Shown: piece after piece, positions 1 through 4,024 of the stretch | Position numbering within the stretch: position 1 is the stretch's first letter | Layout of the letters: each line of letters starts with the position of its first letter | DNA from: Gammaproteobacteria bacterium | Lineage (GTDB): Bacteria > Pseudomonadota > Gammaproteobacteria > UBA6429 | NCBI GenBank assembly: GCA_030635835.1 | Contig: DAOVYB010000001.1 | Span: forward strand, 1-42,762 | Length of the DNA: 42,762 nucleotides | Direction of reading: 5' to 3' | Program-made: the position numbers and the translations under genes | Notes under the pieces: generated by a model | What the model was told of the DNA's origin: nothing | Database searches by the model: none | Seen by the model: only the letters and a program-made list of their open reading frames with translations

Positions 1-228
1 ACTTTCTTTTTCGCCTTCTTCTTAGCCGCTTTTTTCTTGGCTACTTTTTTCTTGGCCTTCTTCTTAGCGACTTTCTTTTTCGCCTTCTTCTTAGCCGCTT
101 TTTTCTTGGCTACTTTTTTCTTGGCTTTCTTCTTGGCGACTTTCTTTTTCGCCTTCTTCTTAGCCGCTTTTTTCTTGGCTACTTTTTTCTTGGCCTTCTT
201 CTTAGCGACTTTCTTTTTCGCCTTTTTC
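1..228. repeat. 69-bp tandem repeat encoding the adenylate kinase tail
   Basis: Three nearly identical 69-bp units start at 1, 70 and 139, and a fourth degenerating unit starts at 208. Each encodes 23 residues of KKA/KKV pattern on the minus strand. Differences between units are mostly synonymous changes. The array runs off the left edge, so the true copy number is unknown. Being a multiple of three, units can be gained or lost without breaking the frame. Confidence 0.95.
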
Positions 229-1067
229 TTAGTCACTTTTTTCTTAACGACTTTCTTCTTCGCTGTTTTCTTCTTGGTTGCTTTTTTCTTGCTGGATTTC
301 TTCTTAGCGGCAGTTTTCTTTTTAGCCGCTTTTTTCTTCTTCACAGGTTTTTTAGCTGGAGCTGCAGCAACTTCTGCAGGTTTCTCTTCAGCAGTTTCAG
401 CTTTAGCTTCGATACTGCTTGGTAAACTTTCTAATACACGTTGAACGGCAGCAAAAATGGAATCGACTTCACCAACACCACGTACGGTACGTAATTTTCC
501 CTGTTTACGGAAATAATCAACTAATGGAGCCGTTTCAGCATCATAGACTTTCAAACGATTACCAATCGTTTCTTCATTATCATCTGCACGATGATCTAAA
601 CCACCACCACATTTGTCACATCGACCTTCAATACGAGGAGGCGAAGTATGGATATTAAACATTTGACCACATGAACCACAGGTACGACGCCCGGTTAAAC
701 GCTGCATCAGGATATTAAACTCAACATCAATCAGTACTGATGCCTGAAGGGGTTTATCCACATCATCTAACATGTTGTCTAACGCTTCAGCTTGAGGAAT
801 ATTGCGCGGGAAGCCATCTAAAATAAAGCCATTTTGAGCGTCACTTTCAGCGAGACGTTCTTTAATCATACCCAGCACAATATCATCAGAAACTAATTGT
901 CCGGAATCCATTGCTTGCTTGGCTCGCATTCCTAATGGTGAGCCGGCTTTTACAGCTGCACGTAATAGATCACCTGTTGAAATTTGAGGAATGCCATATT
1001 TTTCTACAAGTAGCTTTGCCTGTGTGCCTTTGCCACCGCCAGGGGCACCTATTAATACGATTCTCAT
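1..1067 (-). CDS. adk: Adenylate kinase with long Lys/Ala-rich C-terminal tail (3' end beyond window)
   Basis: Catalyses ATP + AMP to 2 ADP in the cytoplasm. Reading the minus strand from the ATG at 1065-1067 gives one open frame to the window edge (355 codons, no stop). The normal kinase fold occupies about residues 1-216: P-loop GAPGGGKGT at 7-15, DGFPR at 84-88, and a LID with four cysteines (130, 133, 150, 153) that should bind zinc. An acidic/Ala/Pro linker (about 218-237) leads into a tail of more than 115 residues made almost only of Lys, Ala, Val and Thr, resembling histone H1 or AlgP. Bacterial enzymes of this class usually stop near 215-220 residues. A GGAG lies about 11 nt before the start. 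The frame was followed by hand through the junction and no frameshift was seen. The kinase assignment is firm; the role of the tail is unknown. Confidence 0.95.
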   Translation of the reverse strand, partial: MRIVLIGAPGGGKGTQAKLLVEKYGIPQISTGDLLRAAVKAGSPLGMRAKQAMDSGQLVSDDIVLGMIKERLAESDAQNGFILDGFPRNIPQAEALDNMLDDVDKPLQASVLIDVEFNILMQRLTGRRTCGSCGQMFNIHTSPPRIEGRCDKCGGGLDHRADDNEETIGNRLKVYDAETAPLVDYFRKQGKLRTVRGVGEVDSIFAAVQRVLESLPSSIEAKAETAEEKPAEVAAAPAKKPVKKKKAAKKKTAAKKKSSKKKATKKKTAKKKVVKKKVTKKKAKKKVAKKKAKKKVAKKKAAKKKAKKKVAKKKAKKKVAKKKAAKKKAKKKVAKKKAKKKVAKKKAAKKKAKKK

Positions 1068-1433
1068 TATTCTTATACTCCATTAACTCGGGATTAATCT
1101 GTATTTTGATAGCAGCTGGATTTATAAAAATTCCAGCCCAATCAATAAATAAAATTATGGTAAACACTAAAACTAATCCTTGAACTCAGCTAAGTCAATG
1201 CTATTAATTGTGAATTTTGATCTACTTTTAGTAATTTAGGCGATTTGCATTCCGAATATTATCTACACTGTTCGATTAAAACGTGACGACTGTTACAAAT
1301 ACCCCTTTATTTACTGCGATTTATATAAATTTCACTGGATTATGTGTTTTAGCAACATGCTGATAGAATAACCGGCCTTTTTCTGCTTGCACTAGCAAGC
1401 AGAGCATCAAAAATTATCACGAGGATTAAATAT
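1068..1433. other. Divergent intergenic region between adk and ppa
   Basis: A 366-bp gene-free stretch lies between the divergent adk and ppa starts and must hold both promoters. Short open frames exist on both strands, but none has a plausible ribosome site or a recognisable product. The only clear structure is the hairpin at 1382-1403. No well-formed -35/-10 pair could be assigned by eye. Confidence 0.6.
1382..1403 (+). promoter_or_regulatory. Hairpin in the ppa 5' leader
   Basis: TCTGCTTGC (1382-1390) and GCAAGCAGA (1395-1403) form a perfect 9-bp stem with a 4-nt loop. The hairpin ends 30 nt before the ppa ATG and has no T-run after it, so it does not look like a terminator. It could stabilise the leader or act as an operator; function is inferred only. 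Confidence 0.5.
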
Positions 1434-1982
1434 ATGAACCTGGATAGAGTAAGTACCGGTAAAAATGTCCCGGACGAAATTAACGTAATTATTGAAATCC
1501 CTTCTCATAGTGATCCTGTGAAATACGAAGTCGACAAAGAAACCGGCGCCATGTTCGTTGACCGTTTTATGAATACGGCTATGCATTACCCTTGTAACTA
1601 CGGTTATATTCCGCACACCCTTTCTGAAGATGGTGATCCGGTTGATGTGTTAGTCCTTACCCCTATCCCGTTAATTAGTGGTTCCGTCATTCAGGCCCGT
1701 GTTATTGGTATGTTAAGCATGACTGATGAAGCCGGCCCCGATGCCAAACTGCTTGCTGTGCCCATTACCAAGTTATGCAAAACATATGAAAATATGAATA
1801 GCCCGGAAGATGCGCCACAACAGTTATTAGCGCAAATCACGCATTTCTTTGAACACTATAAGGATCTAGAGGAAGGCAAATGGGTCAAAGTTGAAGGCTG
1901 GGTGGGTGCTAATGAAGCCAAAGCTGAAATTACCTCAGCAATCCAACGTTTCCAGGATGCGCCTGAAAAACCTTGTTTCTAA
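1434..1982 (+). CDS. ppa: Inorganic pyrophosphatase, family I
   Basis: Hydrolyses pyrophosphate to two phosphates in the cytoplasm, pulling biosynthetic reactions forward. The 182-residue length fits the hexameric bacterial family I enzyme. The diagnostic metal-binding stretch DGDPVDVLV and the upstream [14 protein letters not shown] and [11 protein letters not shown] segments are present. A GAGG ribosome site lies about 10 nt before the ATG at 1434. It sits 14 nt upstream of the phosphoesterase gene and is probably co-transcribed with it. It diverges from adk; both genes serve the nucleotide and pyrophosphate economy. Confidence 0.97.
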
Positions 1983-2768: not shown

Positions 2769-3197
2769 TCAGGTGTTTTTCTCTACCCAGCGTGTTTCTT
2801 CAGTCAGGCTTTCTTTTTTCCAGAAAGGCGCACGTGATTTGAGTTCTTCCATCAAATAGCGGCTGGCGTCAAATGCTGCTGCCCGGTGAGCCGACCACAC
2901 CGCGACTAATACAATCGGATCATTCGGCAACATTTCACCGACGCGATGAACAATCAGTGAATCGAGAATATCCCACTTAGATGCAGCTTCTTTGCTGATT
3001 TTTTCAAGGTACTTTTCGGTCATACCCGGGTAATGCTCGAGCAACATCGCTTCAACATCATCGCCCTGATTAAATTCACGCATACTGCCAACAAAAACGG
3101 CTGTGGCACCATATTTTCCGGAAAAACCCGCTTCTGCCTGATAATCGAGCAAACGTTGATAAGGCTCAAAGGGCTCGGCTTTAATTTCAATCAACAT
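2769..3197 (-). CDS. moaE: Molybdopterin synthase catalytic subunit MoaE
   Basis: Large subunit of molybdopterin synthase. With MoaD it transfers sulfur to cyclic pyranopterin monophosphate to make the dithiolene of molybdopterin. At 142 residues it is near the usual 140-150. Family features are FVGSMREFNQGD (35-46), LEHYPGMTEKYL (53-64), HRVGEM, and two lysines at 120 and 127 that match the catalytic lysines of the E. coli enzyme (stated from family knowledge). It begins 2 nt after the moaD stop, so the two are translated together. No other Moa gene besides moaC is in the window. Confidence 0.95.
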   Translation of the reverse strand: MLIEIKAEPFEPYQRLLDYQAEAGFSGKYGATAVFVGSMREFNQGDDVEAMLLEHYPGMTEKYLEKISKEAASKWDILDSLIVHRVGEMLPNDPIVLVAVWSAHRAAAFDASRYLMEELKSRAPFWKKESLTEETRWVEKNT

Positions 3198-3199
3198 CG

Positions 3200-3442
3200 T
3201 TAACCACCAGTGACCGGAGGGAAAAAGGCGACTTCATCCCCGGCTTTCACAGCATATGTCGCATCAACGTAATCCATATTTACCGCCATCAGGGTATTGT
3301 CAGGTAAGCTCATCTTATTGGTAGCACTGTTCCATGCTTCGAAAACAGTGGAAACCTCACTTTCTGATACCTCAGCCTCAGCTAAACCAACCTGTTCGCG
3401 CAAGCTGGCAAAAAATTTTATCTTAATTACTGAATTACTCAT
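3200..3442 (-). CDS. moaD: Molybdopterin synthase sulfur-carrier subunit MoaD
   Basis: An 80-residue beta-grasp, ubiquitin-like sulfur carrier. The chain ends FFPPVTGG; the terminal Gly-Gly is where the thiocarboxylate forms before sulfur transfer to the pterin in MoaE. N-terminal VIKIKFFASLREQVG matches the family. The gene directly precedes moaE in a minus-strand pair and diverges from moaC across about 105 bp. Confidence 0.95.
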   Translation of the reverse strand: MSNSVIKIKFFASLREQVGLAEAEVSESEVSTVFEAWNSATNKMSLPDNTLMAVNMDYVDATYAVKAGDEVAFFPPVTGG

Positions 3443-3547
3443 AAAAATCGCTTTCTCTGGTTTGCGTATTTAAGCTTGCAAGCCTATCATGATTTAACTT
3501 TTTAACCAATCACAACATATATAACCTATTGATTTATAAGGATAAGC
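3443..3547. promoter_or_regulatory. Shared moaDE/moaC promoter region with a 10-bp palindrome
   Basis: This 105-bp gap lies between divergent molybdopterin genes. A perfect palindrome GCTTGCAAGC is at 3474-3483 and could be an operator serving both directions. No Moco riboswitch-like structure was recognised. Confidence 0.35.
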
Positions 3548-4024
3548 ATGTCGGATTTAACGCATTTTAATAGCCGTGGCGAAGCACACATGGTCGATGT
3601 CGGTGAAAAAAACCAAACACACCGTATAGCGGTTTGTGAAGGCACCATCACAATGCAGGCTAAAACGCTGGAAAAAATTCTGCAAGGTGACCACAAAAAA
3701 GGCGATGTACTCGGTATTGCCCGTATTGCCGGCATCATGGCAGCAAAAAAAACCTCAGATTTAATTCCATTATGTCATCCGCTCATGCTCACCCATGTTG
3801 ATATCGACTTTGTTCCTGATTCTGATAGCAATAGTATTTATTGCAGCTGTCGGGTTGAAACACGCGGCCAAACTGGGGTCGAAATGGAAGCGCTCACCGC
3901 GATTCAGGTCGCTTTGTTGACCATCTATGACATGTGTAAAGCAGTTGATCGGGGCATGACCATGACAAATATCCGCTTAACTGAGAAAGCTGGCGGAAAA
4001 TCTGGGCATTGGCAACAAGCATAA
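3548..4024 (+). CDS. moaC: Cyclic pyranopterin monophosphate synthase MoaC
   Basis: Converts the MoaA product (3',8-cyclo-7,8-dihydro-GTP) into cyclic pyranopterin monophosphate, the substrate of MoaD/MoaE. At 158 residues it is the usual length. Family motifs are present: [42 protein letters not shown], and the end segment [18 protein letters not shown]-rich ribosome site (TAAGGATAAGC) precedes the ATG at 3548. It is divergent from moaD-moaE, so three of the core cofactor steps cluster here while moaA is elsewhere. Confidence 0.97.

Follow-up and report, generated by a model that had tools for sequence, protein, structure and literature searches.

Adenylate kinases of the zinc-LID type (TIGR01351 / NF001380) include solved proteins such as 1zin and 5g3y, whose chains comprise 217-226 residues. 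The protein described here is encoded at one end of a 42,762-nucleotide stretch of gammaproteobacterial DNA (hereafter the window, meaning that entire stretch). It shares with these enzymes the whole kinase domain, the conserved arginines and the four LID cysteines, but adds at least 139 residues of polycation. Long Lys/Ala-rich C-terminal tails are also described for AlgP and PhaF of Pseudomonas, and that of AlgP is built from repeats and predicted to be disordered (PMC9239181). Those tails are KPAA repeats on granule proteins, whereas the window has KKKA/KKKV motifs on a metabolic kinase (PMC9239181). Actinobacterial TopA likewise carries C-terminal lysine repeats on an otherwise ordinary enzyme, yet one that acts on DNA (PMC7398561), whereas the tailed Adk acts on nucleotides.

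The tail further resembles histone H1-like/HC2 proteins (PF07382, NF038053) in its length, predicted disorder and richness in lysine and alanine, yet no family profile matched it in Pfam and NCBIfam searches of the tail alone; some of the listed homologues do have PF07382. The PRK13808 model (NF010381, 335 positions), which we take to represent a basic-tailed rhizobial form of adenylate kinase, is also longer than the kinase domain. The window's protein scores 232 bits against it, below the cut-off of 426, with the best stretch in the kinase part, and the tail alone gives no match. In the literature searched (open-licence PMC papers) we found neither a lysine-tailed adenylate kinase nor a lysine-rich PPi-dependent phosphofructokinase (PFP, the product of pfp). 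An H1-like basic tail on a core metabolic kinase is new to that literature and common in public gammaproteobacterial sequence. The novelty that an earlier note on this DNA had attributed to the arrangement holds for the papers searched.

The window encodes an adenylate kinase with a lysine-rich tail

The adk frame opens with an ATG at position 1067 and runs for 355 codons without a stop, its 3' end lying beyond the window (Table 1). The earlier note had described a zinc-LID adenylate kinase joined in one frame to a Lys-rich tail that is still open at the edge, and this description holds, with 139 tail residues visible. The extent that it gave for the gene, 1..717, is replaced by the span in Table 1.

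Table 1. Coordinates of adk, its tail repeat and the neighbouring ppa gene in the window.
Feature	Position	Strand	Basis
adk, zinc-LID adenylate kinase with C-terminal lysine-rich tail	3..1067	(-)	Open frame, NF001380, Pfam
adk kinase domain, residues 1-216	420..1067	(-)	NF001380, Pfam, solved relatives, AlphaFold2 pLDDT mostly 70-91
adk LID domain, residues 127-162, four invariant cysteines	582..689	(-)	PF05191, alignment
adk tail, predicted disordered, residues 217-355, net charge +72, still open	3..419	(-)	Composition, AlphaFold2
69-bp (23-codon) tandem array, three near-identical units (1-69, 70-138, 139-207) and a decayed one	1..260	(-)	TRF, unit comparison
Shared head-to-head intergenic region between adk and ppa, 366 bases	1068..1433	.	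Gene layout
ppa, inorganic pyrophosphatase	1434..1982	(+)	NF002317, 285.5 bits (cut-off 200)

Residues 1-216 form a complete adenylate kinase, which exceeds the cut-offs of NF001380 (291.2 versus 251 bits) and of a second, TIGR01351-type adenylate kinase profile (246.5 versus 168) and matches both Pfam ADK and ADK_lid (PF05191, 44.0 bits, cut-off 26.6). The P-loop reads GAPGGGKGT. In an alignment of 23 sequences, the window's included, the LID cysteines C130, C133, C150 and C153 are invariant, as are R36, R88, R123, R160 and R171, presumably the equivalents of the substrate-binding arginines of E. coli adenylate kinase. The best solved relatives are 5g3y, 5g3z and 1zin. Judged by its sequence, the protein is a genuine adenylate kinase, catalytically intact.

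The kinase part has a net charge of -2. The tail contains 77 K, 33 A and 11 V among its 139 visible residues, a lower bound on its length because it runs off the window edge. The K+A fraction of the adk frame is 0.39, compared with 0.25 or less in the other listed window ORFs of at least 100 aa. The tail is predicted to be disordered: in an AlphaFold2 model based on 23 sequences, pLDDT is below 50 in nearly all of residues 219-355 and these form no secondary structure. Because the same kinase-tail fusion recurs in independent assemblies, it is very unlikely to have arisen artificially from a frameshift or a chimera. The window edge itself most likely reflects an assembly that broke off within the repeat, as 8 of 23 loci from the window's order likewise leave their contig within the tail or shortly before it.

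The visible end of the tail is encoded by a tandem array with a period of exactly 69 bp (TRF: 3.8 copies, 94% matches, score 457), in agreement with the in-frame units at 1, 70 and 139 that the earlier note had listed. Units 1-69 and 139-207 are identical and unit 70-138 departs from them by 2 bases; the decayed unit, 208-276, agrees with the others at 55-56 of 69 bases. Across the three 23-codon units of 1-207 there are 4 codon differences, all of them synonymous.

Comparison of close homologues indicates that tail length changes by repeat units. Some pairs share the same kinase sequence and are set apart by a single clean gap in the tail, of 28 residues in P0010/P0011 and of 5 residues in P0057/P0058 and P0055/P0056, in keeping with the earlier proposal that the tail can change length in frame. 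The kinases of P0047 and P0049 are 99% identical and their tails differ by a gap of 28; other close pairs differ less cleanly. In L214, P0032 and P0044 the tail end seems to have switched to another frame (E/G/S/Q-rich or R-rich), which suggests either indels within the repeat or faulty assembly.

Distribution of tailed adenylate kinases

The named loci nearest to the window's adk (L001 and L002, 91% identity) belong to the same order as Thiohalophilus (G008). Comparison of adk lengths across related genomes, which the earlier note had suggested, bears out the tail. A kinase of this first type was found in 32 of the 40 genomes of the order (hand count), the other eight having only short-type adk matches or none. 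The tail is present on 27 of the 31 first-type kinases that were read, which include all but that of G024, and the other four are cut by contig ends. In a sample of the class, 116 of 185 genomes had a match at E<=1e-55; among the 30 best loci, which were read, 25 are tailed and 5 untailed, two of the 30 (L216 and L221) being G008 and G007 of the window's order.

A tail that is 20 residues or longer and contains 25% K or more is found in 116 of the listed homologues (the best 120 of 8000 scored), but not in P0017, P0072, P0082 and P0115. The 119 tails of at least 20 residues in this set have medians of 136 residues, 51% K and a net charge of +70; over all 120 listed homologues the median net charge is +70.5, and 111 lie above +25. 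An arginine-cap pattern is found at the tail end in 94 of the 120, with RRR as the last three residues in 36, KKR in 19 and RHR in 13.

In a quick tree of 91 kinases, built without an outgroup, the gammaproteobacterial family forms one group (SH-aLRT 98) with 53 tailed, 7 untailed and 4 truncated members, and this group stands beside untailed Nitrospirota kinases. For this tree L012-L080 were thinned to every fourth locus plus L071, identical kinases were dropped and the four truncated rows were left unlabelled. The tail label requires at least 5 changes, against a mean of 27 when shuffled, a clustering that near-copies help to produce. A single gain of the tail followed by later losses would be allowed by the tree. 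Because seven untailed members sit in the tailed kinase group, the tail is dispensable somewhere. By record title, the nearest kinases from outside the Gammaproteobacteria (L012-L064) belong mostly to Nitrospirota, Thermodesulfobacteriota and Archaeoglobus, which hints at an old lateral transfer.

Many genomes encode a second adenylate kinase. In the order, a second adk exceeds the cut-off in 27 of the 32 genomes with a first-type kinase (hand count), and is missing in G035, G039, G029, G028 and G007. Outside the order, it occurs in 11 of 23 tailed genomes versus none of 5 untailed ones (p 0.12), and the tailed kinase is the sole adk at E<=1e-40 in the other 12, where it must therefore also serve the whole cell. 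Because fewer than half of these 23 genomes have a dedicated second Adk, such an enzyme as the reason for the tail is no general rule. Nine second, short adenylate kinases (L097-L105, seven of them from the order) are of a different, also four-cysteine type and lie far from the tailed kinase on the tree.

Lysine-rich extensions on other proteins

In the window's order, PFP carries a KKKA/KKKV-like extension at its N-terminus. PFP was found in 32 of the 40 order genomes, and of the 30 loci read, 17 have at least 20 K/R in the 60 residues before the core and the others 8-15. Among 120 listed PFP homologues the extension has at least 6 K/R in all, at least 10 in 116 and at least 20 in 49. A lysine-rich N-terminal extension of variable length was noted on the PFPs of L134, L135, L137, L165, L169 and L182-L211 (L135 confirmed by the NF010675 profile, the rest assigned by similarity or by eye). 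The adk and PFP tails are not strictly coupled, because G023, G037 and G040, in which the only adk detected were short-frame ones, also have long PFP tails; the 16 PFPs linked to tailed adk have no long extension.

Two further proteins carry comparable extensions. The DksA of L147, which matches the DksA profile and also HC2 over its cut-off, has a Lys/Ala-rich N-terminal extension, and L153, from a genome without an adk match (G033), encodes an RNase R with a long lysine-rich C-terminal tail. DksA-like proteins with a Lys/Ala-rich N-terminal extension were also recognised by eye in L141-L145, L148, L150, L152, L154-L160, L162, L163, L166 and L168. Small proteins composed almost wholly of KKKA/KKKV repeats occur at L136:1369-1758 (-) and in L138 and L149; such repeat-only proteins at contig ends may be pieces of tails. 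The list of lysine-tailed proteins is not exhaustive, because a census with the tail as query missed most of them: even at E<=10, of the adk tails in the seven tailed genomes searched, only that of G008 was recognisable.

The tail as a probable polycation anchor

We consider it rather probable, largely by analogy, that the tail, as a polycation, anchors the active kinase to ribosomes, RNA or the nucleoid. As a non-specific electrostatic anchor it would keep the enzyme on abundant polyanions instead of freely diffusing, the candidate targets being polysomes, rRNA and mRNA, the nucleoid and, where present, polyphosphate. Anchored Adk would convert AMP back to ADP near reactions that release AMP and PPi, and the DNA repeat would offer an easy in-frame means of lengthening or shortening the anchor. 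Such a function is favoured by the wide conservation of the tail (27 of 31 first-type kinases read in the order, 25 of 30 class-sample loci and 116 of the 120 listed homologues), by its predicted disorder, by the largely synonymous drift between repeat copies and by the like extensions that PFP, DksA, RNase R and small proteins bear in the order. Against it speak the 12 tailed genomes outside the order whose sole adk at E<=1e-40 is the tailed one, and the seven untailed members of the kinase group.

Two described systems point towards an anchor. In E. coli, a GFP with a charge of +25 attaches to ribosomes and the diffusion of positive GFPs is slowed by up to 100-fold, although a high positive charge is no guarantee of ribosome binding (PMC5726854). 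AlgP, with its K/A-rich tail, is found on polyP granules, and on the nucleoid when the polyP kinases are deleted (PMC9239181). By analogy with GFP and AlgP, the Adk tail should bind whichever polyanion abounds. Ribosomes or RNA appear at least as likely a target as DNA, and DNA binding is plausible.

Genes for pyrophosphate-consuming enzymes next to adk

The window's adk lies head-to-head with ppa (Table 1). The products of ppa and pfp both consume pyrophosphate. The neighbouring pyrophosphatase, which the earlier note had remarked on, proves to be a conserved partner of tailed adk. In the DNA read on either side of adk, which extends for about 1.5 to 4 kb, is shorter near contig ends and so misses more distant partners, ppa is head-to-head with 17 of 19 tailed and 4 of 4 truncated adk in the order loci L111-L133. 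Among L001-L011 it accompanies 7 of 9 tailed adk (at about 2.4 kb in L006 and L008). In the class sample, the 25 tailed adk have pfp head-to-head in 16 cases and ppa in 5. L071, whose adk tail is arginine-rich, has pfp head-to-head at a distance of 189 bases. None of the 68 untailed adk of L012-L080 is head-to-head with ppa or pfp, nor is any of the nine second adk. Elsewhere in the window (2769-4024), moaE-, moaD- and moaC-like genes were recognised by eye near ppa and a phosphodiesterase-like gene.

It is possible, if somewhat doubtful, that these neighbours account for the tail, in that the tailed Adk and a partner that uses PPi (the product of ppa or of pfp, the latter itself tailed or not) would form a co-expressed, co-located unit that clears AMP and PPi. 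The head-to-head partners in 21 of 25 tailed class-sample loci and in 17 of 19 order loci would fit such a unit, as would the lysine-rich N-terminal extension of PFP, which has at least 6 K/R in all 120 listed homologues. However, the class-sample contrast is small (21 of 25 tailed versus 1 of 5 untailed, p 0.011, kinship ignored). Nor does the pairing require the tail, because the untailed adk of L010 and of L236, the single untailed case in the class sample, are head-to-head with ppa too; the untailed adk of L009 has neither partner. In addition, pfp shares its strand with the untailed adk in L079 and L080, the 16 adk-linked PFPs lack a long tail, and long PFP tails also occur in the three genomes with short-frame adk only.

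For the polycation anchor, the pairing with PPi users suggests a purpose, namely that the tail would serve local recycling of AMP and PPi. A further step, in which Adk and the PPi user would together make up an anchored AMP/PPi-recycling unit on the polysome or nucleoid, through polylysine tails or through head-to-head co-expression, is speculative, and we hold it to be doubtful, tending to unlikely.

Other explanations for the tail

An unlikely alternative is that the tail holds Adk on polyphosphate granules, where, paired with a polyphosphate kinase, it would produce ADP/ATP out of AMP plus polyP. K/A-rich-tailed AlgP does localise to such granules and its C-terminal domain is needed for granule spacing (PMC9239181), and PPK1 is present in 20 of the 32 order genomes with a first-type kinase (hand count). 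However, PPK1 is no commoner with the first-type kinase than without it (20/32 versus 6/8, p 0.69). Neither PPK1 (E<=1e-60) nor PPK2 (E<=1e-30) was detected in 11 of the 32 genomes with a first-type kinase and in 9 of the 27 with a visible tail, counts to be read with the reservation that drafts can miss genes. Among these genomes is the isolate Thiohalophilus (G008), which has a full adk tail. Because 9 of 27 visible-tail genomes show neither kinase, polyphosphate is unlikely to be the general target of the tail, and the polyphosphate tethering put forward in the earlier note does not hold as a general rule.

Slippage in a lysine-codon repeat could also have lengthened a harmless tail, leaving a nearly neutral decoration, and we regard this as improbable. 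The number of repeat units does differ between identical kinases, and a few copies (P0032, P0044 and L214) have frame-shifted ends. However, the tail persists across deeply diverged kinases, and its DNA uses both K codons and several A codons side by side. The tail is also clustered on the tree (5 changes versus a shuffled mean of 27, with help from near-copies), the arginine-cap pattern ends 94 of the 120 listed homologues, and a like composition is shown by DksA and by PFP, in the latter at the other terminus. Between shifted repeat copies in 38 tails (those with 35% K or more, a length of 40 codons or more and no N), we counted 702 synonymous against 347 non-synonymous single-base codon changes, where a synonymous share of 25-29% is expected without constraint; part of this excess is inherent in the comparison, since lysine makes up half of the residues and the shift used was the one that gave the most identical codons. 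The counts show a tail composition apparently kept while the DNA drifted, which does not mean that each residue matters.

That the enzyme serves APS-based sulfur oxidation is a highly improbable and largely refuted explanation of the tail: the nearest kinases outside the Gammaproteobacteria come from Nitrospirota, Archaeoglobus and other lineages known for sulfate reduction, and aprA exceeds the cut-off in 25 of 40 order genomes, but it does not do so in the window's closest relatives (G001 and G002) and in visible-tail genomes such as G003, G006, G025 and G026.

Implications for nucleotide and pyrophosphate metabolism

According to PMC5726854, 'free' positive proteins are essentially absent from the cytoplasm of E. 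coli, L. lactis and Hfx. volcanii, and slowed diffusion may be part of the explanation. In whole lineages related to the window's organism, a central metabolic enzyme is maintained at a charge of about +70, and PFP, a second such enzyme, at a median of +26.5. Either the charge is the point, as it would be for anchoring, or these cells tolerate what others avoid. Anchoring by the polycation tail, if true, would link the nucleotide and pyrophosphate economy to the sites where AMP and PPi arise, and if a recycling unit exists, aminoacyl-tRNA, RNA and DNA synthesis would be the local sources of AMP and PPi. A free metabolic enzyme would in that case have become ribosome- or chromosome-bound, with the length of its anchor set by a DNA repeat.
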